Assembly (NCBI GenBank): GCA_018830565.1
Contig: JAHJRX010000071.1
Location: 1-40,533 of the forward strand
Source: a bacterium
GTDB taxonomy: Bacteria > UBA9089 > JAHJRX01
Reading direction: 5' to 3'
Length of the DNA stretch: 40,533 nt
The number at the start of each line of letters is the position of its first letter. Position 1 is the stretch's first letter. The notes below the pieces were generated by a model. It did no database searches, was not told the DNA's origin, and was given only the letters and a program-made list of their open reading frames with translations. Below are positions 1 to 10,181 of the stretch, in pieces. Made by a program: the position numbers and the translations under genes.

Positions 1-1
1 G

Positions 2-418
2 AAAGAGCTATTTGAATTTATCAACAAAAACATGTCTTGCACTTTGGCAACATGCGTTGATAACAAACCACATGTTCGGTGGATGTGGATGTATAGAGCC
101 GACGAGAACGGGATTATATTTCACACTGGGGTTGTGAGAGAGGTTTATAAGCAACTTCAGGCAAATCCTAATATTGAACTATGTTTTTACAATGGTGATC
201 CGCAAAATATGGTTCAAGTCCGCGTCAGCGGAATTGCTATGCAAGAAAACGATATGAAACTGAAAGAAGAAATCATTTCCAACAGGCCTTTTCTTAAAGC
301 CGTTATTGCTCAACATGGGCATGAAATCATTGCAGTATTTCGGGTCCAAAAAATGGTGGCTACTGTTTGGTCCATGGCAAAAAATCTTGCTCCGAAGGAA
401 GTCATTAATATAACATAA
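2..418 (+). CDS. Pyridoxamine 5'-phosphate oxidase-fold protein, 5' end outside window
   Basis: The frame is open from base 2 with no stop, and residues before the first ATG (base 32) read KELFEFINKN, so the true start lies left of the window. The visible part has the PPOX split-barrel pattern: 'TLATCVDNKPHVR' strand, 'GIIFHTG', then 'LCFYN...VQVRVSGIA', where the family binds flavin. Such proteins bind FMN, F420 or heme, and the substrate cannot be told here. It is the first visible cassette and is followed two bases later by an attC site. The family call is good; the function is unknown. Confidence 0.8.
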   Translation, partial: KELFEFINKNMSCTLATCVDNKPHVRWMWMYRADENGIIFHTGVVREVYKQLQANPNIELCFYNGDPQNMVQVRVSGIAMQENDMKLKEEIISNRPFLKAVIAQHGHEIIAVFRVQKMVATVWSMAKNLAPKEVINIT

Positions 419-419
419 T

Positions 420-475
420 TTCTAACAAGTCGTTGCAGCGGACGGCGAGTACGCCGCTGAACTCTATCGTTAGAC
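420..475 (+). repeat. attC site 1
   Basis: The left box TCTAAC (421-426) pairs with the right box GTTAGAC (469-475). Inside, GTT and CAGCGG on the left pair with CCGCTG and AAC on the right, leaving a single extrahelical G. The first 24 bases from CTAAC onward recur exactly at 10063-10086. This is the textbook attC layout that an IntI tyrosine recombinase reads as a folded bottom strand. Confidence 0.75.
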
Positions 476-575
476 ATACAAGAGAGCGGAAGATGGCAAC
501 TCAGAGGGAAGATATCACTCGGACAGAAGATAGCAATCAAGCGTAAGTTAGCAACCAAGCCTAACACGGCGATAC
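476..575. other. Gene-less purine-rich spacer between attC-like sites
   Basis: No convincing ORF is present. The stretch is rich in A and G and carries iterated pieces of the type GATAGCAATC and GTTAGCAACC, ending in AAGCCTAAC. Similar purine-rich spacers lie at 1470-1554 and 2340-2405, each squeezed between two attC-like sites. It could be an ORF-less cassette or the leftover of deleted cassettes. Confidence 0.5.
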
Positions 576-674
576 GCCTAACAGCGGGGACTGGGTATCG
601 CGATTAATGTTTTTGACTTATCAATATTTTATTTTACACATAACGGTTTGTGGTTATTCTCCCCGCTGATAGGT
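576..674 (+). repeat. Degenerate attC-like inverted repeat
   Basis: A GCCTAAC box (576-582) is followed directly by AGCGGGGA (583-590). The exact complement TCCCCGCT lies at 660-667 and is followed by GATAGGT, one or two changes from a GTTAGGY box. The site is longer than the others, with a loop of about 70 bases. It could be a long attC or chance; it sits at the expected boundary before the zeta-kinase cassette. Confidence 0.4.
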
Positions 675-714
675 GAGCTTTACCGTTCAGTGAAGATATA
701 AAGGACTACACATT

Positions 715-1227
715 TTGGAAAAGAAGTGCTATATATTAGCTGGTCCCAATGGAGCAGGAAAAACGACCTTTGCAAATGAGTTCCTTCCGATTGAAGCAGA
801 ATGCCTTAATTTCATAAATGCGGATTTAATCGCGCAAGGTCTTTCACCATTTCAACCCGACAAAATGGCAATTGAATCAGGAAGACTAATGGTTGAACAT
901 ATTGATGATTGTGTTAGGAAAAATGAATCATTTGCATTTGAGACAACGCTCAGCGGAAAGGGATACATCAAGAAAATAAATGAATGGAAAAAAGAAAAAT
1001 ATGAAATCATCATTTATTTTCTGAAGCTCCCATCGGTTGAATTCGCAATCGAACGTGTAAAATTGAGAGTTGCCCATGGTGGACACAATGTTCCAGAGCA
1101 AGATGTTCGAAGGCGTTTTGAAAGAAGTTGGTATAATTTCACCATGTTTTACAAATTCTTAGCTGATTCATGGATTGTTTTTGATACGTCAGGCAATATA
1201 CCAGTTATTCTTGATGAATCGGAGTGA
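715..1227 (+). CDS. Zeta-toxin/AAA-type small P-loop kinase
   Basis: This 170-residue protein opens with Walker A 'AGPNGAGKTT' (residues 9-18), followed by 'NADLIAQGLSPF' and 'FETTLSG', the pattern of zeta-toxin-like kinases. Zeta proper phosphorylates UDP-N-acetylglucosamine; solitary relatives often act on unknown targets. The arginine-rich 'VRRRFERSW' helix resembles the lid arginines. The start is a TTG with AAAGGA about ten bases upstream. It overlaps or abuts a small downstream gene, a toxin-antitoxin-like layout, although classical epsilon antitoxin precedes zeta. The family call is firm; toxicity is inferred. Confidence 0.8.
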   Translation: MEKKCYILAGPNGAGKTTFANEFLPIEAECLNFINADLIAQGLSPFQPDKMAIESGRLMVEHIDDCVRKNESFAFETTLSGKGYIKKINEWKKEKYEIIIYFLKLPSVEFAIERVKLRVAHGGHNVPEQDVRRRFERSWYNFTMFYKFLADSWIVFDTSGNIPVILDESE

Positions 1228-1232
1228 ATACT

Positions 1233-1388
1233 ATGAAAAAACATAATAAGTATGCTATCATTGGATTAAAAGCCTTACAAAGAGCTGCAGAAAAGGTAGC
1301 TGAAAATGCAAGAAAAAATAAGCATAAAATCCCTGTATGGCGCAACGATCGTATCGAGTATGAAATTCCAGGAATTACCACCGAATAA
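1233..1388 (+). CDS. Small basic protein, candidate partner of the zeta-like kinase
   Basis: This 51-residue ORF starts at ATG 1233; an in-frame GTG at 1224 would overlap the kinase stop as GTGA. It begins MKKHNKYAIIGLKALQRA, is Lys/Arg/Ala rich and helical for about 35 residues, then ends in a short 'PVWRNDRIEYEIP' tail. Tight coupling to the kinase and presence in the same cassette suggest an antitoxin or accessory role. No named family is recognised, so this is inference from position and size. Confidence 0.6.
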   Translation: MKKHNKYAIIGLKALQRAAEKVAENARKNKHKIPVWRNDRIEYEIPGITTE

Positions 1389-1660
1389 TCGTGTCAATTG
1401 GATATCGAGAAAGATGGTGCATTTGGCGTTAATCTTAGGCATCGTTGCCGCTTACACGCAGCGTTAGGCTCACAAGAGAGAGCGGAAGAACATACTCGGG
1501 CGTGAGAAAACGGTCAGTCGCGAGATAGCAACCGGGAGCAAGATAACAACCAAAGCCTAACAAGAAAAATCAACCTGACAAGGAGCAGGTTATTTTTATG
1601 GTTAGATGTTTGAAATAAACGATAATTTTATGTTCAACCGTTACGGAGTAAGTTGAATAC
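1389..1660. other. Inter-cassette region with a lone attC right box and purine-rich spacer
   Basis: A GTTAGGC box at 1463-1469 marks the probable end of the zeta cassette, but no matching GCCTAAC box lies upstream, so the site is half degraded. From 1470 to 1554 runs a purine-rich spacer without a reading frame, containing GAGATAGCAACC and AGATAACAACC, directly before attC 2. From 1608 to 1660 is the short leader of the PIN gene. Nothing else is recognised. Confidence 0.5.
1555..1607 (+). repeat. attC site 2
   Basis: The GCCTAAC box (1555-1561) and GTTAGAT box (1601-1607) flank a hairpin. AAAAAT and AACCTG pair with CAGGTT and ATTTTT, leaving one extrahelical C and an eight-base loop. The same plan with small changes recurs at 2289, 7336 and 9493. 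This is the clearest evidence that the array is an integron rather than ordinary repeats. Confidence 0.85.
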
Positions 1661-2152
1661 ATGGGAAAGTTTAGTATATACATAGAAACTTCGATTATTA
1701 GCTACTTAGCGGCTAAGCCAAGCCGAGACTTGCTTACGGCCGCATGTCAGCAAATTACAGCTGAATGGTGGGAGAACAAGCGAAATGAATATGATCTTTT
1801 CACCTCTGAGCTGGTAGTTGCTGAAGCCAGAGCAGGAGATCCAGATGTAGCAGCAAAACGACTTAAGTTACTCCAAGGAGTTTCTGAACTGAAAATTACT
1901 GATGATGTTCGTCAGATAGCTGACACATTGATAGGACAAGGTGCTCTTCCTGATAAAGCCCAAGCTGATGCACTTCATATCGCAACAGCTGCTGTTCATG
2001 GCATAGATTACTTACTAACATGGAATTGCCGTCACATTGATAATCCTGCGACGAAACCTTTAGTACGCAAGGTGTGTAGTGCAGAAGGTTACTTATGCCC
2101 GGAAATTTGCACCCCAATTGAAATTATGGAGGTAAGTGAAAATGCAAAATGA
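1661..2152 (+). CDS. PIN-domain protein, VapC-like toxin
   Basis: This 163-residue protein begins 'FSIYIETSIISYL', the first PIN strand with an acidic residue (Glu in place of the usual Asp). 'LVVAEARAGD' supplies the second acidic region and 'QADALHIATAAVHGIDYLLTWN' the third, followed by 'NCRHIDN'. PIN toxins are Mg-dependent ribonucleases. The gene overlaps a small downstream ORF, a toxin-then-partner order seen in this IETS subfamily. The start ATG is preceded by 'TTACGGAGTAAG', a modest ribosome site. The family is confident; activity is inferred. Confidence 0.85.
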   Translation: MGKFSIYIETSIISYLAAKPSRDLLTAACQQITAEWWENKRNEYDLFTSELVVAEARAGDPDVAAKRLKLLQGVSELKITDDVRQIADTLIGQGALPDKAQADALHIATAAVHGIDYLLTWNCRHIDNPATKPLVRKVCSAEGYLCPEICTPIEIMEVSENAK

Positions 2153-2336
2153 AATTCTATTAGAAGTCTGGCAAAACAGAGATGAATTCGCCAAACGATA
2201 TAATTACGACCTTAAGGCAATGGTTGCGACATTGCAAGAGATGGAAAGTCATCCATTGAATGCTATAGTTGACAGAAGAAAAGAAATATCTAACCAAAAA
2301 AATGAACCAGGCAGAGCTGGTTATTTTTGTCGTTAG
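2142..2336 (+). CDS. Small partner of PIN toxin; C-terminus encoded by attC
   Basis: ATG 2142 sits nine bases after GGAGG (2128-2132) and overlaps the end of the PIN gene; an in-frame GTG at 2136 is possible. The first 45 or so residues look like a real helical protein (EILLEVWQNRDEFAKRYNYD...MVATLQEME), typical of PIN-associated antitoxins. The last 17 residues or so (from SNQKNEPGRAG onward) are simply the translation of attC 3, with the stop TAG inside its right box. It probably lost its own stop when the site was joined to it. Confidence 0.7.
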   Translation: MQNEILLEVWQNRDEFAKRYNYDLKAMVATLQEMESHPLNAIVDRRKEISNQKNEPGRAGYFCR

Positions 2337-2339
2337 ACA
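2289..2339 (+). repeat. attC site 3
   Basis: The ATCTAAC box (2289-2295) and GTTAGAC box (2333-2339) flank arms AAAAAT + AACCAG and CTGGTT + ATTTTT, with an extrahelical G and a six-base loop. The core is nearly identical to the site at 9493. The 3' end of the preceding ORF lies within it. Confidence 0.85.
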
Positions 2340-2405
2340 AAGAAAAAGAACCGAGAGGTCAAGCAACAGCAACCGAGAGATCAGGCGGATAACCACTCAA
2401 CAAGT
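2340..2405. other. Gene-less purine-rich spacer between attC 3 and attC 4
   Basis: Sixty-six bases with no ORF lie between two complete attC-like sites. The stretch contains 'ACCGAGAGGTCAAGC' and 'ACCGAGAGATCAGGC', an internal imperfect repeat, and is A/G rich like 476-575 and 1470-1554. It is the size of a minimal ORF-less cassette. Confidence 0.5.
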
Positions 2406-2462
2406 TGCTAACAAGGCAATCCAGCCGACCTCGTATCTTGTCGGCTGATTTTGTCATTCGGC
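2406..2462 (+). repeat. attC site 4, divergent, with degraded right box
   Basis: The TGCTAAC box (2406-2412) is followed by AATC, an extrahelical C and AGCCGAC. After a ten-base loop the complement GTCGGCT and GATT follow. The right box reads CATTCGG instead of CGTTAGG, two changes. The stem differs from sites 2, 3, 6 and 7, so this cassette probably came from another source. The next gene starts inside it. Confidence 0.7.
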
Positions 2463-3455
2463 ATACTTGTTATCTGCACTTCGTGTGCTCAATTGTCTGA
2501 TGTGCAGATAAAACTCGGAAGCGATACAACCGTTGTTTTCGCCACCGTTGATGAAGGCAAACAGATTCTCACTGCGCAAGATGACTTTGTTCGTTGCATG
2601 AGTCCTTTCGACCGTGCTGCTAGGATGAAGACGGACAGTGATGTCTCCGAAAAGGACTACCTGGAGTTTGTCGGTAAGAACGTTCTCGTGTGGAATGATG
2701 CTGAGAAGCAAAAAATTACTTCCTCCTTTCAAGGCATTCAGACAGAACTTAAGGCTTTGTCTTTGCCTTTTCCGAAGAAGGTGCTCCTCATCAAGACGAC
2801 AGGAAATGAAGAAGGTGAGGCTGCATACACCCGAGCCAACGCCATTGTCTTCCCCAAAGACGATCTGAAAGCACCCACCGCGAAGATCCAGAAGACTATC
2901 TGCCATGAACTCTTTCACATCATATCCCGGGCGAATCCAGACTTGCGTGAGAAACTTTACACAACCATCGGTTTCGTAAAATGTAGCGAGGTTGCATTTC
3001 CATTGGAGTTGAAGTCGCGGAAAATTACAAATCCTGACGCACCGAGGAACGATCATTGCATCCGTCTTCAGGTCGGTGGCGCAAAGCGTTGGGCCGTTCC
3101 CATTCTCTTTTCGAGCGATGAGAAATACAACATGGGGCGAGGGGGCGAGTTCTTCGACTACCTCCAGTTTCAGTTCCTGTTGGTTGAACGAAACGACGAT
3201 TCGTCCACTGTTAAACCGATCTATGATAGTCAAAATTCGAAGCTTGTAGGTATGCAGCAGGTATCCGGCTTCTTTGAGCAAGTTGGCGAGAACACAGAAT
3301 ACATTATCCATCCCGAGGAGATACTCGCTGACAACTTCACACTCCTTGTGTTGCAAAATCGTAACCTGCCCTCACCAGCAATAATCAAGAAGTTGGAAGG
3401 AACACTGAAAGACAAGAGGAACGCCGAACCAAACGCTCCAGTTAATGCGAAATAG
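2451..3455 (+). CDS. Lipoprotein-like HExxH metallopeptidase
   Basis: The 334-residue product has a short hydrophobic start 'FGILVICTSCAQL' with cysteines that could form a lipobox, so an envelope location is likely. Zinc-binding HELFH lies at residues 152-156, and 'IIHPEEILADNF' near residue 285 could give the third ligand. The rest is not a family I can name. The TTG start at 2451 lies inside attC 4, and the frame is open back to 2412, so the original signal peptide may have been trimmed by cassette joining. The stop lies inside the hairpin at 3435-3498. Base composition looks GC-richer than that of its neighbours. Confidence 0.7.
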   Translation: MSFGILVICTSCAQLSDVQIKLGSDTTVVFATVDEGKQILTAQDDFVRCMSPFDRAARMKTDSDVSEKDYLEFVGKNVLVWNDAEKQKITSSFQGIQTELKALSLPFPKKVLLIKTTGNEEGEAAYTRANAIVFPKDDLKAPTAKIQKTICHELFHIISRANPDLREKLYTTIGFVKCSEVAFPLELKSRKITNPDAPRNDHCIRLQVGGAKRWAVPILFSSDEKYNMGRGGEFFDYLQFQFLLVERNDDSSTVKPIYDSQNSKLVGMQQVSGFFEQVGENTEYIIHPEEILADNFTLLVLQNRNLPSPAIIKKLEGTLKDKRNAEPNAPVNAK

Positions 3456-3498
3456 CCCAGCGTAAAAAGCACGCTGGGCTATTTCGCATTAACTGAGC
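3435..3498. terminator. Long perfect inverted repeat, terminator-like, containing the stop codon
   Basis: Bases 3440-3463 and 3471-3494 are exact reverse complements (24 bp) around a seven-base AAAAAGC loop. With one bulged C the stem extends to 3435-3498. The stop TAG (3453-3455) is in the left arm. The right arm contains only TATTT rather than a full T-run, so it may be a processed or bidirectional terminator. The box orientation (GTTAAT left, ATTAAC right) is opposite to that of attC. Confidence 0.6.
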
Positions 3499-3581
3499 TA
3501 AAATAGAGGAAAACAGAGGAAAACAGAAGGACACATCCCAAGTTTTCTAATGAATTCCTCCAAGCATTTTACTATTTTTTC

Positions 3582-3611
3582 TTGATTTGAGTGGTTTTCA
3601 TAAGGTATAAT
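3582..3611 (+). promoter_or_regulatory. Sigma-70-like promoter, copy 1
   Basis: TTGATT (3582-3587), an 18-base spacer and TATAAT (3606-3611). The spacer and flanks (TGAGTGG...TATRAT...CAGATAA) are repeated at 3806-3835, so the promoter itself is duplicated. No gene directly follows this copy; it fires into a spacer with an attC left box. Confidence 0.65.
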
Positions 3612-3635
3612 ATTCATCAGATAAGAGAGAGTAAG

Positions 3636-3713
3636 ATTCAGACCTTAAATGTTGAATTCACAATATTTCGGTAAACGAAAAGAAAAGAAAAAGACAGAGA
3701 ACCAAAGCCTAAC
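3636..3713 (+). repeat. Cassette 3' flank repeat with attC left box (copy A)
   Basis: It begins with TCAGACCTTAAA, continues through GAATTCACAAT and a purine tract, and ends in ACCAAAGCCTAAC. The same order of elements occurs at 7248-7342 and 9421-9499, each time ending in the attC left box. Here no GTTAG right box follows within 80 bases, so the site is incomplete. Confidence 0.6.
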
Positions 3714-3805
3714 AAGAAATTAAAGGCATAAAAAATAATGAGAATCGTCACTTGAAACCTTGGTTATTGGCAACATAGTTTGTAGCATGTTTTATAAAAT
3801 TTTTC

Positions 3806-3835
3806 TTGACTTGAGTGGCTTTTATATGGTATGAT
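3806..3835 (+). promoter_or_regulatory. Sigma-70-like promoter, copy 2, driving the three-gene ATPase module
   Basis: TTGACT (3806-3811), an 18-base spacer and TATGAT (3830-3835), about 145 bases upstream of the first module gene. The -35 box is closer to consensus than in copy 1 at 3582. A cassette with its own promoter would be expressed without relying on the integron promoter. Confidence 0.65.
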
Positions 3836-3889
3836 TTCCACAGATAAAGGAAATTATAGAGAAAAAATGCGATTGGAGGGCTAAAAGTA

Positions 3890-3988
3890 ATGCATAAAAC
3901 TATTCAAAAGATACTTCGGTGGATATCTTACACCTCCCCCAAAAATCAAATTTCCTATCATCTGTACAGAAAGAGAAAAAATGTTTAA
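3890..3988 (+). CDS. Possible 32-residue basic leader peptide
   Basis: The ATG lies ten bases after GGAGGG (3875-3880), the best ribosome site near the module. The product (MHKTIQKILRWISY...) is Lys/Arg rich. Its end overlaps the start of the next gene by eight bases, whereas that gene has only a weak site of its own. It may be a translational leader or a chance ORF; no family is recognised. Confidence 0.35.
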   Translation: MHKTIQKILRWISYTSPKNQISYHLYRKRKNV

Positions 3989-4772
3989 TAATTTAGAAGA
4001 AAATAAAATAACAGAAATAAACAGCTCGATAAAAAAAATTTCTAAAATCTGGAGTAGCATAAACAAATCTATTCCTTCGTGGGATTTTAATACTTTAAAA
4101 ACATCGATGGAAGATTTTGATAAAAAGTTGATAACAGCAAATAAAGAGTGGGAAATCTTTAAAAATACTATTATTGAGAATATAGACAATAACTCAAAAA
4201 AAGTTGGTGACAAAGAATATATCACGGACTTAGATATAAGTTTAAGAGAACAAAAATTACCACTCATAGGAGAGTTTCCGGAATATTTAATTCCACCTTT
4301 TAAATTAGCAATAAATAAGGAATCCTTTGAAATCAAATTATTTTTTGGAAGAAAATTTGAAAAAACAACAATAATGAAACCCAAAGAAATCGCGATATGG
4401 GTACAAAATAAATATAAAAAAATTACTAACAAAAAATTTGACCCCTCAATCTTTATGAAAGAACTTATTGAAGCTTATAAATGGGGTAACAAAAATATTT
4501 ATAGAGAAAAAGAGGTTTTATGGGGTAAAGCAGTAAAGCTTTTAGAGATATATAGTATTTTAACTATAAAAAGAAGTACAAAATTAGATTATCCAAAACA
4601 GTTGTATATGTATGAATTGGCACAATTAAAAGAAAATTCAGAAATGGTTTATGAAGATTACAGGTTTGAGCTCGGATTTGCCAAGAATCCAACAGATGCA
4701 ATCGTTATTGTTGATAGTAAAGGGGTTGAATCAAGGGTAAGTAGTCTTACTATCTACAAAGAAGGAAAATAA
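3981..4772 (+). CDS. Unknown helical protein, first gene of the ATPase module
   Basis: This 263-residue protein has no recognised family. The first 70 residues are helical and charged (SSIKKISKIWSSINKSI...), the middle has 'PEYLIPPFKLAINKESFEIKLFFGRKFEKTTI', which looks like a beta sheet, and the C-terminal third is helical and ends in 'DAIVIVDSKGVESRVSSLTIY'. No signal peptide or membrane segment is seen. It is one base away from the ATPase gene, so the products likely act together. In related anti-phage modules this position is held by a TerB-like or adaptor protein, but no TerB motif was recognised here. Confidence 0.7.
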   Translation: MFNNLEENKITEINSSIKKISKIWSSINKSIPSWDFNTLKTSMEDFDKKLITANKEWEIFKNTIIENIDNNSKKVGDKEYITDLDISLREQKLPLIGEFPEYLIPPFKLAINKESFEIKLFFGRKFEKTTIMKPKEIAIWVQNKYKKITNKKFDPSIFMKELIEAYKWGNKNIYREKEVLWGKAVKLLEIYSILTIKRSTKLDYPKQLYMYELAQLKENSEMVYEDYRFELGFAKNPTDAIVIVDSKGVESRVSSLTIYKEGK

Positions 4773-4773
4773 A

Positions 4774-5976
4774 ATGGAAATTACAACAAAAGATCTTTCT
4801 TTATTAAAAGAAGGAAAACCTCCTGAGAGTAAAGAGCTATTATTAGAAATGACTCTTGGTAAAGAAAAATGGTTAGATATTTTTACTAAATATTACTTAC
4901 AAAATTATATCAATAATGGTGGCAGTAAGGTTAAAATACTCATTGGGAAGGAAGGCACAGGTAAAACCCATCTATTAAAGTTTTTAGAATATACCGCCAA
5001 AGAACTTGGATATAATGCTATTTATTTTTCAGCTAAAGATATAAGTGGAAAAATAAGCGATATTTCAAATTTTTATAAAATTATTGCAGATTGTATAGAT
5101 CAAGAGCAACTAATTAAGGGATTAAGCTTAAAGGTAGCCAAACAAATGGGATTCTCCATAGAAAGATATGATGGAAAGTCAAAATTATTACCTTTATTAA
5201 TAGAAGAAGGTCGGGGCCAAAATGATGCTGGTAGAGAAATAAGAAAAGCTATATATAACACCTTTAAAAAAGCCGATTTGAGTCCCTCTTTTTTTACATT
5301 TGCATTATTAGTTGCAGGAGATAGGCTTATAGGTTTAGATGATACTGATGAAAGTACAAAAATAGCATTTAAGTGGTTAAAAGGAGAAAAACTCGAAAGA
5401 TTTGAAAAACGAGATACCCATCTTTTTGAAACTTTACAAAAATCAAATGCAAGATATTGGTTAAATGCTTTAATAAAAATACTTAATTTTGCCGGAATCA
5501 AAGGTTTGGTAATATTGTTGGATGATTTAGAGGTTTTAGCTGAAAAAAAATTAGATGGAAGATTTAAATATACCACAAACGCTGTAAAAGATGCCTATGA
5601 ATTGTTAAGACAACTTATTGATGATATGGAGCTTTTAAGTAACTTTCTACTAATTCTTGCCGGTGATAAGGTTTTAATTGATGATGATGAAAGAGGACTT
5701 AAAAGTTATGAAGCCCTATGGATGCGTTTGCAAACAGGACTTGTTCCATTAGACAGATTCAATCCTTTTGCAGATATGGTCAATATAGATTTACACTTAA
5801 AATCCCTTGGAGAAGATTTTCATGAACAAGTTATGAAGAGATTAATAAAATTGTTTGAAGTAAGTGGATTAAAAAGAGATGGGACTATTCAGACGCCCGA
5901 TTTATCAAAGAATAGTTTATTGAGAGCGGCAGTAATAGAAACTGCATTGAGAGCAAAAAAACTGGAGGAAGAATAA
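4774..5976 (+). CDS. P-loop ATPase, BREX BrxD-like (first of pair)
   Basis: The 400-residue protein carries Walker A 'GKEGTGKTHLL' (near residues 58-68) and Walker B 'LVILLDDLEVL' (245-255), then 'LLLILAGDKVLIDDDERG', a sensor-1-like region. The layout matches BrxD/DUF2791-type ATPases of phage-resistance systems. It is weakly similar in plan to the next gene, and the two probably form a hetero-oligomer. The upstream gap is 1 base, and the stop abuts the next ATG. The ATPase call is strong; membership in a defence system is inference. Confidence 0.8.
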   Translation: MEITTKDLSLLKEGKPPESKELLLEMTLGKEKWLDIFTKYYLQNYINNGGSKVKILIGKEGTGKTHLLKFLEYTAKELGYNAIYFSAKDISGKISDISNFYKIIADCIDQEQLIKGLSLKVAKQMGFSIERYDGKSKLLPLLIEEGRGQNDAGREIRKAIYNTFKKADLSPSFFTFALLVAGDRLIGLDDTDESTKIAFKWLKGEKLERFEKRDTHLFETLQKSNARYWLNALIKILNFAGIKGLVILLDDLEVLAEKKLDGRFKYTTNAVKDAYELLRQLIDDMELLSNFLLILAGDKVLIDDDERGLKSYEALWMRLQTGLVPLDRFNPFADMVNIDLHLKSLGEDFHEQVMKRLIKLFEVSGLKRDGTIQTPDLSKNSLLRAAVIETALRAKKLEEE

Positions 5977-7215
5977 ATGAAAATAATTCCAGAAGAAAGT
6001 TTAAATGCAATCTTTGCCATAGAATCCTTGAGAGCTGGAATTCCTACCCGTAAATCTACCAGAGAACTTCCAGATTTGAGAAAAGACATTATTAGTACAA
6101 TTAAAGAAGATCTTGGAAAATTCCAAAATGGAGAAATACCATTAGGAAGATTAGTTTGGGGTCAGTATGGACAAGGCAAGACACACTTGCTAACAATGGT
6201 TGAACATATAGCACTCGACATGAATTTTGCGGTAAGTCGTGTTTCTTTAAGCAGAGAAGTATCTTGCCATAATTTATTTAAATTTTACACAAGAGTTGCT
6301 CCACGAATTATAACTCCGGATTCTACTGCATACGGTATCCATAGAATATTAAGTAAAAAAGAGGTAAAATATTTACCCGATACACCGATACAAAACTTTG
6401 ATAGATACATCCATCCTTTACCAGCATTAATTTTTGAAACATCCCTTTCTACTGAAGGTGAAGAGCAACATAGATTTTATAGTGATCTTATGGGTGAAAG
6501 AGCACCAAAAGGAGAATTTAACAGAATTTATAGAGAATTAAAAAAAACAGCTCCTCCTAAGTTTGACACCTTTAAGCAAACCGACCATGCAACTGCATAT
6601 TTTGGCTTGCTTGCAGATGTAACAAAATTTTGTGGCTATAATGGGTGGGTTATTTTAATAGATGAAGTAGAGTTAATGGGTAGATTAGGGAAGGTTGCCA
6701 GATTAAAAGCTTATCAGAATTTAAACTGGCTTTTAAATTGGTCAAAGGAACAAAAATACCCAATCTATACACTTGCGGCTGCAGCTAATAGATTACAGGA
6801 TGATATTTGGTTTGGAAAAAACGATAATGATAGAGATATTATGCCAGAATTAGCTCAAGAAAGGTTTGGTGAAAAAGAAAAAGAGGAAATTAAATCATTT
6901 TTTTCAAAAGCTATTAGTGAACAATGCTTAAATGTATTACCTGTAACCGATGAGGAACTTGCACAATTATTAGATAAAGTAGCCTTGCTTCATAACAAGG
7001 CATATAGTTGGCAATCAGAGATTCCTTTTAATTCTTTGGAATTGATACAACGACAAGGTAGCCAACCTGTTAGAACTTATATCCGTGCAGCAATAGAAAC
7101 CCTTGATATGCAATATCTATATAAAGATGATATACAACTAAATACCACAAAGTTGATTGAACAAGAATTAACTGAAGACCATGATTTCTTTGTTGAAAAT
7201 GATAAACAAGATTAA
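5977..7215 (+). CDS. P-loop ATPase, BrxD/DUF2791 family (second of pair)
   Basis: This 412-residue protein starts 'IIPEESLNAIFAIESLRAGIPTR', a typical BrxD opening. It has Walker A 'GQYGQGKTHLL' (62-72) and Walker B 'WVILIDEVELM' (224-234), then 'TLAAAANRL' and a C-terminal 'GSQPVRTYIRAAIETLD' that resembles an AAA lid. In BREX type 2 and in the Shango system BrxD-like ATPases work beside a helicase; none is present here, where the cassette ends with an attC site 120 bases later. The family call is confident; the system is not one I can name. Confidence 0.82.
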   Translation: MKIIPEESLNAIFAIESLRAGIPTRKSTRELPDLRKDIISTIKEDLGKFQNGEIPLGRLVWGQYGQGKTHLLTMVEHIALDMNFAVSRVSLSREVSCHNLFKFYTRVAPRIITPDSTAYGIHRILSKKEVKYLPDTPIQNFDRYIHPLPALIFETSLSTEGEEQHRFYSDLMGERAPKGEFNRIYRELKKTAPPKFDTFKQTDHATAYFGLLADVTKFCGYNGWVILIDEVELMGRLGKVARLKAYQNLNWLLNWSKEQKYPIYTLAAAANRLQDDIWFGKNDNDRDIMPELAQERFGEKEKEEIKSFFSKAISEQCLNVLPVTDEELAQLLDKVALLHNKAYSWQSEIPFNSLELIQRQGSQPVRTYIRAAIETLDMQYLYKDDIQLNTTKLIEQELTEDHDFFVENDKQD

Positions 7216-7247
7216 TGGAAGGGAAAAAATAGATTAAGGTTGGATTA

Positions 7248-7342
7248 GGGTCAAACCTTGAATGTAGAAAGCAGAATTTGCTCAACAGAAGAGAAAAAGA
7301 GAATAAAAGAAAAAAGACAGCGAAGTAAAGCAATTGCCTAAC
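7248..7342 (+). repeat. Cassette 3' flank repeat (copy B)
   Basis: It starts GGTCAAACCTTGAA and runs through a long purine tract ('AGAAGAGAAAAAGAG', 'AAAAAAGACAGCGAAG') into the attC left box. It has the same element order as 3636-3713 and 9421-9499. Confidence 0.55.
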
Positions 7343-7388
7343 AAAAAAAATGAACCAGACAAGGAGCTGGTTATTTTTATGGTTAGAC
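7336..7388 (+). repeat. attC site 6
   Basis: The GCCTAAC box (7336-7342) and GTTAGAC box (7382-7388) flank AAAAAT + AACCAG paired with CTGGTT + ATTTTT, with one extrahelical G and an eight-base ACAAGGAG loop. The loop is identical to that of attC 2, and the stem to those of attC 3 and attC 7. Confidence 0.85.
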
Positions 7389-7442
7389 AAAGAAATAATA
7401 ATATAAAGTGATGAAAAGTGCTACAATAAAACGAGGTTAAAA

Positions 7443-8870
7443 ATGCAAACTTTAGTACAGTCAATTTATTATCCGATTTCATTAGATGAAATAAAATCAA
7501 AAGTCGCAAGAAAAAATGGCAGACGTAATGGCTTATCTGATAGTAAGCTTCAACAAACGGTTTTATTTAGTAATCATCAATTAGATAATATTAAAGAAAT
7601 AGTAAATGAATTCGGAGAAAAAATTATTCGAGTTGATGGAGAAATTCCGCCAGATTTACCAGTTAAAGACGGAGATAGATTTTTATTTATCAGCTATGAC
7701 CAAAGTATTCTTACCCACGGCTTACACAAATATCCTGCTAAATTTTTCCCCGAGCTTCCACGATGGCTTATAAAACGCTATTCTAAAGAAGGCAACTTAA
7801 TTCTTGACCCATTTGCAGGCAGTGGCACAACAAATATAGAAGCACTTCTAACAAGAAGACCCTCTATTGGTATTGATATTGACCCATTTTCTCGCTATCT
7901 TTCAAAAGTAAAGATTACACCTTTAGATGAAGACGAATTGCAGTTAGCTCAAAAATATCTTTTGAGATTCATATTGAACTATAAACCTTCAAAAATTTCT
8001 GAAGAAGACATACCTGTTTTCCCTTACAGAGACAATTGGTTTAATAAAGAAATTATTCTTGAACTGGCATATCTAAAAAAAATCATAAACGCTCTTGATA
8101 TATCTAAAAATATAAAAGATTTCTTCAGAATTTGTTTTTCGTCTATAATACGTAGTGTGTCAAATGCTGATGATAATTGTACAAGAACTGTAATACGGAA
8201 AAAATTAAATAAAAAAGTTTACCCTGCTGATGCCCTGAAAAAATTTACTGAAGTTATACTGATTAGTGTCCCAAAAATGATAGAGTTTTCTCAAAACTGT
8301 CCGTTGGGTATAAGTGTTAGTTTTCCTGATACAATAGATGCGAGGAATATTAACTATCAAGACTATTTTGACTTAGCAGTAACCTCCCCACCATATGCTA
8401 ACGCGGTGGATTATCCAAGAACACACCAACTTGAAAGCTACTGGTTAGGATTAACCAGCGGCTCATTAACTCCTTTAAAGAAAAAATATGTAGGAACAGA
8501 GAGTGTTTCATCAAGCGAATATAAGAAATTACATGAAATCGGGGTTGAGGAAGCAGATATAACTCTTTCAAAAATTTTCAATAAGGATCCAAGGCGGTCA
8601 TATATAGCTTTTAAATATTTGGACGATATGAGATTAAATTTATTAGAGGTTTATAAATCCTTAAAGAAGGAGGGAAGATATATAGTCGTTGTTGGAAATA
8701 ATAAAATCCGAGGTGAATTATTTGAAAACTGGAAATACATAATGGAGTTAGCTAAGAATATCGGTTTTAAGGTTGAAAATTATTTTGCCTCAGAAATTAT
8801 AAAACATTTTATAAAAGTTCCAAGAGGGGAAAGAATTAATACTGACTGGATTATAGTTTTAAGGAAGTAA
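7443..8870 (+). CDS. DNA methyltransferase (N4-cytosine/N6-adenine class)
   Basis: The 475-residue enzyme has SAM motif I 'DPFAGSGTT' (122-130), preceded by 'HGLHKYPAKFFPELP' and followed by 'IGIDIDPFS'. The catalytic motif IV is 'TSPPYANAVDY' near residues 311-321. SPPY favours N4-methylcytosine, but this is not decisive. Motif I before IV is the gamma-type order. Late 'EGRYIVVVGNNKI' is a conserved strand of the fold. It is 3 bases upstream of a putative nuclease, so the two form a restriction-modification cassette. The ATG has GAGG about 8 bases upstream. The recognition sequence is unknown. Confidence 0.88.
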   Translation: MQTLVQSIYYPISLDEIKSKVARKNGRRNGLSDSKLQQTVLFSNHQLDNIKEIVNEFGEKIIRVDGEIPPDLPVKDGDRFLFISYDQSILTHGLHKYPAKFFPELPRWLIKRYSKEGNLILDPFAGSGTTNIEALLTRRPSIGIDIDPFSRYLSKVKITPLDEDELQLAQKYLLRFILNYKPSKISEEDIPVFPYRDNWFNKEIILELAYLKKIINALDISKNIKDFFRICFSSIIRSVSNADDNCTRTVIRKKLNKKVYPADALKKFTEVILISVPKMIEFSQNCPLGISVSFPDTIDARNINYQDYFDLAVTSPPYANAVDYPRTHQLESYWLGLTSGSLTPLKKKYVGTESVSSSEYKKLHEIGVEEADITLSKIFNKDPRRSYIAFKYLDDMRLNLLEVYKSLKKEGRYIVVVGNNKIRGELFENWKYIMELAKNIGFKVENYFASEIIKHFIKVPRGERINTDWIIVLRK

Positions 8871-8873
8871 AAT

Positions 8874-9368
8874 ATGCCAAATACAGAAGACAAAGGAAGA
8901 CAAGCATCAATAGAAGGTTTTGCTAATGAGCATATCGTTGTTGGTCTTTTAATGAAAAAATATCAAAATGTTTCTCTTGTGGATTTACCTCTATCACCTT
9001 ACGACATAATAATTGTCAGAAAACTTGAAACAGGCGGTGAAGACATTATTAGAGCACAAGTTAGAACAGCAAGAACAAATGTAAGTTTTACTGGAGGCAC
9101 AAGAGGTGGAGTTGACAGAGAATATAAATCTGATGTTAAAACCTATACCCAATCTCCAGAAATTTCTGATGTCATCATTGGTTTAAAACCATTGGAGAAT
9201 GGGGCATTTGATATGTATTTCATTCCGACTATCCTTATTGCCATCTGGGGAACAAAAAGCAAGGGACTTGGAATTATTGAGCCATTGAAAAATAATTACT
9301 CTATTCTTGAAAACTGTAAGAACAAAGATTTGATACTTAATAAATGCAAAGAATATGGAATTATTTGA
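8874..9368 (+). CDS. Putative PD-(D/E)xK-type restriction endonuclease
   Basis: This 164-residue protein shows a compact nuclease pattern: Glu in 'GFANEHIVVGLLMKK', 'SPYDIIIV' near residue 43, then 'IIRAQVRTAR' near residue 60, where the family usually has (E/Q)VK. Strands 'DVIIGLKPL' and 'MYFIPTILI' follow, as in PDDEXK_5-type endonucleases (QVKTA). The lysine is replaced by arginine. It directly follows the methyltransferase and shares its cassette. The restriction role is inferred from motif plus position; an accessory subunit is the alternative. Confidence 0.62.
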   Translation: MPNTEDKGRQASIEGFANEHIVVGLLMKKYQNVSLVDLPLSPYDIIIVRKLETGGEDIIRAQVRTARTNVSFTGGTRGGVDREYKSDVKTYTQSPEISDVIIGLKPLENGAFDMYFIPTILIAIWGTKSKGLGIIEPLKNNYSILENCKNKDLILNKCKEYGII

Positions 9369-9420
9369 TTGCTATATTTCTTGTCCTTCAATATTCAGCA
9401 ATTCTCGGTGAGACAGAGTT

Positions 9421-9499
9421 GGGGTCAGACCTTAAATTGAATATGGAATTCACAATAGTTCGATAAACCAAAAGAAAAGACAGCAAAGCAAAGTCTAAC
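9421..9499 (+). repeat. Cassette 3' flank repeat (copy C)
   Basis: It begins GGGGTCAGACCTTAAAT, has GAATTCACAATAGTTCGATAAAC and a purine tract, and ends in GACAGCAAAGCAAAGTCTAAC. It is closest to copy A at 3636-3713; the shared block is far longer than an attC itself. Confidence 0.6.
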
Positions 9500-9542
9500 A
9501 AAAAAATGAACCAGGCAGAGCTGGTTATTTTTGTCGTTAGGG
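9493..9542 (+). repeat. attC site 7
   Basis: The GTCTAAC box (9493-9499) and GTTAGGG box (9536-9542) flank an AAAAAT + AACCAG / CTGGTT + ATTTTT stem with an extrahelical G and a GCAGAG loop. It is essentially the same core as attC 3. Confidence 0.85.
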
Positions 9543-9563
9543 CGATAAACAAAGAAGGATAAA

Positions 9564-9812
9564 ATGCCAGAAATAACAAGATTCTACGGAATTATAATCA
9601 AATTATTCTTTGGAGATCATCCACCACCACATTTTCATGCCATATATGGAGAATATATCGCTTTGTTCAATATTGAAACATTAGAAATGATAGAAGGTGA
9701 TTTGCCAACTCGAGCAAAGAAATTGGTTAAGGAATGGGTAATAATGTATAAAGATGAGTTAAAAAACATCTGGGAAACACAGGAGTTTAGAAAATTGCCA
9801 CCTTTGGAGTGA
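9564..9812 (+). CDS. DUF4160 protein (toxin-antitoxin-like pair, member 1)
   Basis: The 82-residue protein has the DUF4160 signature: 'MPEITRFYGIIIKLFFGDHPPPHFHAIYGE' in outline, with the conserved 'DHPPPHFH' His/Pro motif at residues 23-30. The tail 'IWETQEFRKLPPLE' is also typical. Its function is not established; it is commonly paired with DUF2442, and the pair is often listed as a putative type II toxin-antitoxin system. It overlaps the next frame by four bases if that gene uses GTG 9809. AAGGAT precedes the ATG. Confidence 0.88.
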   Translation: MPEITRFYGIIIKLFFGDHPPPHFHAIYGEYIALFNIETLEMIEGDLPTRAKKLVKEWVIMYKDELKNIWETQEFRKLPPLE

Positions 9813-9817
9813 TAACC

Positions 9818-10066
9818 ATGAATATTCCAAGAATTCAAGATGTACAAATTTCTGACGCATATACACTTATCATTAAATTTACTAATGATAAAAAAAAGAG
9901 CTATGATGTCACCCCTTTATTAAACCGTGAGATGTTTGCTCCTTTGAAAAGCTTCGCTTACTTCAAGAATGTACATGTGGAACCAGGTGGTTATGCAGTT
10001 GCTTGGGATGCAAATATAGACATCAGTGAATATGAACTTTGGAAAAATGGGAAAGAAATGCCCTAA
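9818..10066 (+). CDS. DUF2442 protein (toxin-antitoxin-like pair, member 2)
   Basis: The 82-residue protein from ATG 9818 (GGAG 8 bases upstream; GTG 9809 would add three residues) matches DUF2442 in 'YTLIIKFTNDKKKSYDVTPLL', 'FAPLKSFAYFKNVHVEPGGYAVAWDANIDIS' in outline, and the C-terminal 'YELWKNGKEMP'. The 'W....DIS..ELW' ending is characteristic. Its stop codon TAA is part of the attC left box, so gene and site are fused. It is a partner of the DUF4160 gene just upstream. Confidence 0.88.
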   Translation: MNIPRIQDVQISDAYTLIIKFTNDKKKSYDVTPLLNREMFAPLKSFAYFKNVHVEPGGYAVAWDANIDISEYELWKNGKEMP

Positions 10067-10090
10067 CAAGTCGTTGCAGCGGACGGTGCG
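10061..10090 (+). repeat. Truncated attC site, left half only
   Basis: The CCCTAAC box and following bases (10063-10086) are identical for 24 bases to attC 1 at 422-445. The sequence then diverges and no GTTAG box follows. This marks the apparent distal end of the cassette array and the junction with the chromosome. Bases 10091-10181 show no gene. Confidence 0.7.
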
Positions 10091-10181
10091 TAACGCCCAG
10101 CAAGCACAGTTACTATGCCTATAAGAAAGCTTACCACAAACAACAGGATTGACCAAATCCACCACACCGTTAAACACACCA

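Follow-up and report, generated by a model that had tools for sequence, protein, structure and literature searches.

The stretch of 40,533 nucleotides analysed here (the window) is an entire contig, C71, of the bacterial genome G000, a 1.70-Mb assembly of 86 contigs that is 99.3% complete. Its first 10.1 kb contain an array of gene cassettes separated by attC recombination sites, and bases 1-10,100 very probably represent the attI-distal part of a chromosomal integron array, a judgement that refers to the integron reading as a whole. The host had been called non-proteobacterial in a preliminary description made from the sequence alone; this was supported, with only 19 genomes of the host phylum, which is a small one, being found where 60 had been sought. 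A scan of the window against Rfam at gathering thresholds gave no match. The attC sites of the array, all in plus orientation and standing behind plus-strand genes, are as follows, with scores from a covariance model, R1, built in this study:

420-475, plus strand: attC of the short G+C-rich type, with R and L arms, 18.8 bits (E 0.051) with R1; predicted cut after 469
559-690, plus strand: long attC resembling a Vibrio cholerae repeat (VCR-like), with a degenerate R' end, nhmmer E 8.4e-14; matches several G009 loci
about 1424-1466, plus strand: possible 3' half of an attC, recognized by eye, ending CAGCGTTAGGC
1555-1607, plus strand: attC of the A/T-rich phylum type, 81.8 bits (R1 training site); predicted cut after 1601
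2288-2338, plus strand: attC of the A/T-rich type, 73.8 bits (R1 training site); predicted cut after 2332
about 3706, plus strand: 5' half-site of an attC, then lost, at the end of a module at 3511-3719
7336-7388, plus strand: attC of the A/T-rich type, 84.8 bits (R1 training site); predicted cut after 7382
9493-9542, plus strand: attC of the A/T-rich type, 61.5 bits; predicted cut after 9536
10061-10097, plus strand: 5' half-site, of the same attC type as 420-475 (91% identity over 35 bases to 422-455), marking the end of the array

The preliminary description had listed six attC-like sites. The four A/T-rich ones that it named are real and lie nearly as described, and a fifth complete site stands at 420-475, whereas no sixth complete short site was found, a long degenerate site and half-sites being present instead. 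The supposed homogeneity of the array did not hold: four of the six attCs are alike, those at 420 and 559 belong to other types, and at least three attC types are mixed. In each of the four A/T-rich sites, CTAAC/GTTAG arms are combined with an internal loop (2-3 by 3 bases), a stem of 6 + 6 pairs containing a single bulged base, and a loop of 6-8 bases. A covariance search, the kind of check proposed in that description, gave good scores for all four of them with R1, which was constructed from attC 1555, 2288 and 7336; attC 9493, left out of the building, was recovered with an E value of 2.4e-12. Searching the whole genome with R1 yielded one further plus-orientation copy, C79:5099 (60.1 bits), likewise outside the training set. 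The match of the long attC extends over 559-687 and was obtained with a profile of four long attCs from phylum relatives. One definition of the integron asks for two or more attC sites with a spacing below 4 kb (PMC9668308; this and the other papers cited below were available in part, and statements on them refer to those parts). The sites at 420, 559, 1555 and 2288 lie within this distance, as do those at 7336 and 9493; from 2288 to 7336 the distance is 5 kb, with a half-site between.

The pattern CTAAC-N25..150-GTTAG was counted 16 times in the window (8 pairs, both strands), always within the first 10.1 kb, while 100 simulated sequences of 10.1 kb contained 1.4 on average and never more than 6. 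Of the eight pairs, three do not represent sites: 422-551 overlaps the 422 site, and those at 7848 and 8398 lie inside the methyltransferase gene and fold weakly. A strict RYYYAAC-GTTRRRY pattern was not selective enough (simulations gave 2.48 on average and as many as 16), and a stem-aware search, which is insensitive, recovered only two window sites and none in ten simulated regions. The stretches 475-555 and 1466-1550, like others in L132, L134, L147, L152, L153 and L157, are gene-free and lie between attCs; they consist of a loose repeat like GGGCGTAAGATAGCAACC, which is common to G009.

The distribution of the A/T-rich type was assessed in 242 genomes, 19 of the host phylum and 223 others, the best 24 candidates per genome being scored. 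At E 0.001 and with stricter filters, R1 matches were obtained in 8 of the 19 phylum genomes versus 2 of the 223 others (10 of 19 in the phylum at E 0.1 with laxer scoring), so that the A/T-rich attC, earlier regarded as host-specific, is supported as such at phylum level. The match in G148, outside the phylum, is a perfect palindrome without a GTT box and was discarded as false, and that in G153, also outside, looks like a real attC. A collection of phylum attCs was obtained by scanning 43 sources, some loci only per genome; 55 of 72 R1 matches were kept, with one strand per place. L164, one of the 55, pairs better if the bulge is left out and may be a terminator. Among the 55 sites, 41 have C as the bulged base of the bottom strand, 7 have G, 5 have T and 2 have A. 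A reading with a single extrahelical base was abandoned, as under the T-N6-G layout (PMC3053210) the first position falls in the internal loop; the base reported here is the second. The same paper, as far as available, gives G for this base in most attCs and blaVIM-2 as the sole example with C, and states that C raised excision with three of the four integrases tested. The stem position is the same here, and the phylum collection, with C as its prevailing base, contrasts with the one example known in 2011.

The strongest single evidence that the sites are cassette ends is, for the one cassette tested, a block shared with another genome. Bases 1601-2336 display 92.3% identity over 736 bases to contig C32 of G015 (L135 103-837), a member of another family of the phylum. 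The shared block begins with the G of the GTTAG box in attC 1555, where the cut is predicted after 1601, and ends at the GTTAG of attC 2288; the two sequences differ upstream up to the GTTAG box and downstream from the next box on. The genes and cassettes of the array are:

2-418, plus strand: gene truncated at the start of the window, for a pyridoxamine 5'-phosphate oxidase-like protein (PNPOx_N, E 1e-15)
715-1227, plus strand: zeta-toxin/polynucleotide-kinase-like P-loop kinase (Zeta_toxin E 5e-6, 26.5 bits, cut-off 22.3; phrog_505, polynucleotide kinase)
1602-2332, plus strand: complete cassette between predicted cuts, with a PIN-domain gene at 1661-2152 (PIN E 1.2e-5, above the cut-off) and a small partner gene starting at 2142
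2451-3455, plus strand: cassette gene without family match in NCBIfam, Pfam, PADLOC or PHROG
3981-7215, plus strand: three cassette genes, for a protein of 263 residues without assigned function and then two BrxC/BrxD-like ATPases (BrxC_BrxD E 2.3e-23 and 3.1e-22; BrxD and SngB models)
7443-9368, plus strand: DNA methyltransferase (MTase_II 248.9 bits, N6_N4_Mtase) and a protein of 164 residues without NCBIfam, Pfam, PADLOC or PHROG match
9564-10066, plus strand: last cassette, a toxin-antitoxin-like pair of a DhiT-like (DUF4160) and a DUF2442 protein (toxin_DhiT 95.6 bits, just below the cut-off of 100)

Judged by these family matches, the genes of the array look like stress and defence cargo, namely the zeta-type kinase, the PIN pair, the BrxC/BrxD-like ATPases, the methyltransferase and the DhiT-like pair. 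Toxin-antitoxin and defence genes are known as cargo of integron arrays. The partner gene of the PIN pair (2142-2336) runs through attC 2288 and has its stop in the GTTAG box, so that this attC appears, by eye, to be partly coding. At the end of the 2451-3455 gene there is a 57-base inverted repeat (3439-3495, 88% complementary).

Unrelated cassettes have about 75-100 bases in common directly before the attC. The consensus of this leader, from 20 aligned copies, is GGGTCAGACCTTGAATATTGAATTCACAATAnTTCGGTAAACCAAAAGAAAAGAAAAAGACAGCGAAnCAAAG, followed by CCTAAC. The window contains the following copies, together with a promoter-like element:

3511-3719, plus strand: conserved module with promoter-like element (3582-3611), leader (about 3624-3705) and attC start; 89% identity to L160 and 83% to L146
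3806-3835, plus strand: second copy of the promoter-like element, preceding the BrxD-like genes
7250-7335, plus strand: diverged copy of the leader before attC 7336, aligned as a profile member
9411-9492, plus strand: leader before attC 9493, query of the leader searches

With this query the leader was detected at 21 places in 5 of the 19 phylum genomes and had no match in the 223 genomes outside the phylum, where the best 3 candidates per genome were scored; its core had no exact match in viral contigs. An attC start, whether complete, long, truncated or cut by a contig end, follows at 20 of the 21 places, the copy on G009:C351 being the one without. A leader profile, trained on 24 places beside A/T-rich attCs, matched 36 places in 366 kb of phylum loci, of which 24 adjoin listed A/T-rich attCs, 9 adjoin attCs that are of other types or halved, and 3 adjoin none, and had no match in one shuffled set. 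Upstream proteins were grouped for 25 leaders, 23 of which had usable open reading frames; these 23 proteins form 21 groups, which means that the leader does not represent the tail of a single gene that has spread. The script used for the grouping favours long frames: for 9411 it chose the methyltransferase and not the nearer gene for the protein of 164 residues, and three of the chosen frames are short or opposed to the attC. Among the copies seen, the leader precedes an A/T-rich attC in G000, G009 and G015, and a long attC in G013 and G018. The promoter-like element TTGACT-N18-TATAAT was found in five copies, three of which stand about 100 bases before CTAAC. Leader and attC probably constitute a standard cassette end that spreads as a unit, sometimes with the promoter-like element. 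No description of a conserved leader before attC was met in the literature passages available; this is weak evidence, since the searches were not aimed at leaders and subscription papers lay mostly outside them.

Leaders with attCs were also found outside arrays. In contig C79 of the host genome (L093) larB is followed by a second leader variant, attC, a weakly aspartic-protease-like gene, a short attC (by eye) and larC, and the 3' end of larB is present in three copies around two attCs (L093 4886-5760). This leader variant was missed by the main leader searches, and nearly the same stretch stands before an attC in G009 (L150). At another locus of G009 (L159 2780-4020), atpA is followed by leader, attC, two small genes lacking a Pfam match and, after a further attC recognized by eye, atpG and atpD, while in L146 a zinc-type ABC (ATP-binding cassette) permease gene is followed by promoter, leader and attC. 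The genes larB and larC are normally adjacent, as are atpA and atpG, and both operons are therefore split. Cassette insertion into the genome is the simplest account of the split operons, a genomic insertion site for cassettes having been named attG (PMC12901181, citing Loot et al. 2024); simple insertion is, however, no explanation of the three larB 3' ends. The position of leader and attC, first in order and directly behind the host gene, suggests instead a docking attC and the formation of cassettes. Leader and attC would then act as a movable standard 3' end which, once placed behind a resident gene (atpA in G009, a larB variant in G000), makes of it a cassette in waiting and provides a docking attC for insertions. 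Cassette formation would thus have been caught in the act, and the attC may also end transcription; taken together, we regard this account as rather unlikely. Pieces of group II introns were observed beside attCs in L149 (2634-2708, minus strand), where the intron ends 7 bases before the attC at 2574-2626, and in L136 (2232-2386 and 1571-1646, minus strand); group II introns at attCs are already known (PMC7923331).

The four A/T-rich sites of the window also score as intrinsic terminators on both strands, with a G+C stem and then a T-run, and these four sites account for 8 of the 12 terminator rows found, versus 5.5 +/- 2.3 expected. In the phylum, 34 of the 55 A/T-rich sites are terminator-like on the forward strand, as against none of five long or G+C-rich attCs. 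On these grounds, and given that the match in G148 is a palindrome of this kind, the A/T-rich hairpins might be merely intrinsic terminators between unrelated genes. Such a view leaves unexplained why CTAAC/GTTAG arms are conserved beyond the hairpin, why pairing is improved by a bulge in 54 of the 55 sites and why the shared block ends at G|TT boxes, and it is extremely improbable. From their sequence, the terminator likeness of the A/T-rich sites looks compatible with their identity as attCs, terminator function being a prediction. AttCs have been judged not to end transcription, partly for want of a T-rich tail (PMC8876359); the tail of the A/T-rich attC here is ATTTTT.

Three phage-integrase-type genes are encoded in the host genome. 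One of these, C60:400-1359, is an integron integrase (TIGR02249, 472.2 bits, cut-off 265), with 325.3 bits to the solved structure 2a3v and the two stacked histidines kept. The gene reads away from the left end of C60 and is preceded by an attI box, ATACTGCTAATAGGCAGTATAACCCTAGG|TTATGC, with a G|TT insertion point. By eye, this box also stands before intI in 4 of 5 relatives (L008, L009, L010 and L012; not L011) and in G013:C30 of the host phylum. The preliminary description had placed the integrase to the left of the window, and had named the lack of any integrase in genomes with these repeats as an observation that would speak against it. The host genome does possess intI and attI, with a polarity that puts the array toward window base 1, but on C60, a contig not joined to the window by sequence. 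Given the direction of intI and the polarity of attI, the array would exit C60 leftward and have the same polarity as the window shows from its base 1. In a sister genome the assembly is broken at the same place, its gene ending a contig. In L165 (7354-8320, G013:C30), a broken short-type intI is followed by an attI like that of C60 and then by leader-bearing cassettes with long attCs. Before the shared cassette in G015:C32, L135 1-102, ending ACAGAACTGTATAATCACTTG|TTAGG, is by eye a possible attI of another type.

The integrase of C60 is nearest to that of a Nitrospinota metagenome-assembled genome (81%), as would be expected if C60 had been binned wrongly and came from another organism. In word composition C60 nevertheless agrees with the window flank and C79 (r 0.68-0.82) but not with the Nitrospinota contig (0.27-0.32), and the nearest IntI fragment (99/81) belongs to G013 of the host phylum, where it stands behind the same attI, which makes a binning error very improbable. 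Agreement is lower for the array itself (0.49-0.57). Composition supports, at the level of sequence words, one host for C60, the window flank and C79.

The phylogenetic tree of IntI (8 phylum rows, 33 of 80 named loci and 7 unnamed loci; several forks open) contains two types from the host phylum. The short type comprises G000 and the G013:C30 fragment, beside Nitrospinota L008 (100/94), with rows of Myxococcota, Desulfobacteraceae, Brocadiaceae and Scalindua nearby on open forks. The long type comprises G007, G009, G011, G013 and G017 (100/100), joined by the long row G009:C109 (98/96), and possesses about 95-140 extra N-terminal residues, as judged by the start of the core-binding domain. 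The first 115 residues of one long integrase were found in 10 of the 19 phylum genomes versus 5 of the 223 others. The five members of the core long group have tyrosine-histidine, and the other nine integrases of the alignment two histidines; the long integrases of L127, L128, L129, L130 and L131 combine the N-terminal extension with tyrosine-histidine instead of the two stacked histidines, a pair that in IntI holds the first extrahelical base (PMC3053210). Of the 18 phylum genomes besides G000, 10 have the N-extension and 8 lack it; R1 has matches at E 0.001 in 7 of the former and in none of the latter (p 0.004), and at E 0.1 in 8 and 1, respectively (p 0.015), p values that are optimistic because related genomes are not independent. 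G000 is the exception, having the A/T-rich attC type and no N-extended integrase. As the type co-occurs with a lineage missing from this genome, the short integrase has probably acquired the A/T-rich cassettes from phylum relatives, or they would be a relic kept after a long integrase had been lost.

The same exception invites another explanation, namely that the window array is a cluster of attC sites lacking integron-integrases (CALIN), left by or imported from an N-extended integrase system and neither continuous with nor used by the C60 integron. The genome lacks the N-extended integrase and yet carries its attC type, and C79 of the same genome bears such an attC cluster far from any integrase. 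Against this, the site at 420 and the half-site at 10061 belong to a different attC type, one integron is consistent with the polarity and with both contig ends, and in G013:C30 a broken short-type intI and attI are directly followed by the leader-bearing cassettes of the phylum. We consider a CALIN somewhat unlikely.

Several observations weigh against the reading of the window as part of the C60 integron with a leader-bearing attC family. Only 5 short sites are complete, several sites being degenerate or halved, and parts of the array may for this reason be dead. No overlap joins C60 to the window, and no other contig contains a match to the last 200 bases of C60, which places at least one cassette, begun on C60, within the gap. 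A/T-rich attCs co-occur with a lineage to which the integrase of C60 does not belong, and R1 found no match in any of 11 genomes whose integrases are related to that of C60. As regards the leader, only its last 35-45 bases are common in some profile members, 31 of the 55 A/T-rich attCs have no recognizable leader, and 3 of the 36 profile matches have no attC. With these points taken into account, it still seems fairly likely that C60 and the window are joined in one integron, which would be composed of C60 (reversed), a gap and the window. As in known integrons, IntI would bind the folded bottom strand of attC, cut at G|TT, and insert and excise cassettes.

The origin of cassettes was named a knowledge gap in a paper of 2026 (PMC12901181). 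Unrelated genes with the same leader and attC, also behind housekeeping genes, offer defined junctions for testing cassette formation. The presence of two integrase lineages and one attC family in these genomes makes it testable whether the attC sequence is determined by the host or by the enzyme. One objection to transcription termination by attCs in the available part of PMC8876359, that they are not T-rich, is met by an attC with a T-run after it.

Other known systems can be compared with the array. ORF-less (open reading frame-less) or promoter-bearing cassettes (PMC8876359) are alike in their gene-free stretches between attCs and in the promoter-like element before attC, whereas here, in several families of the phylum, one leader recurs before the attCs that follow unrelated genes. 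CALINs, a term taken from PMC9668308, and insertions at attG (PMC12901181) likewise place attCs and cassettes outside the integron, as at larB/larC in C79 and atpA/atpG in G009; in the present case leader and attC stand directly behind the host gene, with the cassette after them, and the larB 3' end is threefold. Finally, sedentary chromosomal integrons have taxon-specific attC sites, for which models exist for 11 taxa (PMC8352920; also PMC8618304), the host phylum apparently not being among them. The integron described here belongs to this known kind: it is chromosomal, and the phylum in which it occurs has an attC family and a leader module of its own. It resembles sedentary chromosomal integrons in its integrase, attI, cassette array and attCs similar within the taxon, and differs from them in having the attC of one integrase lineage beside another integrase, a leader before attC and a mixed array.

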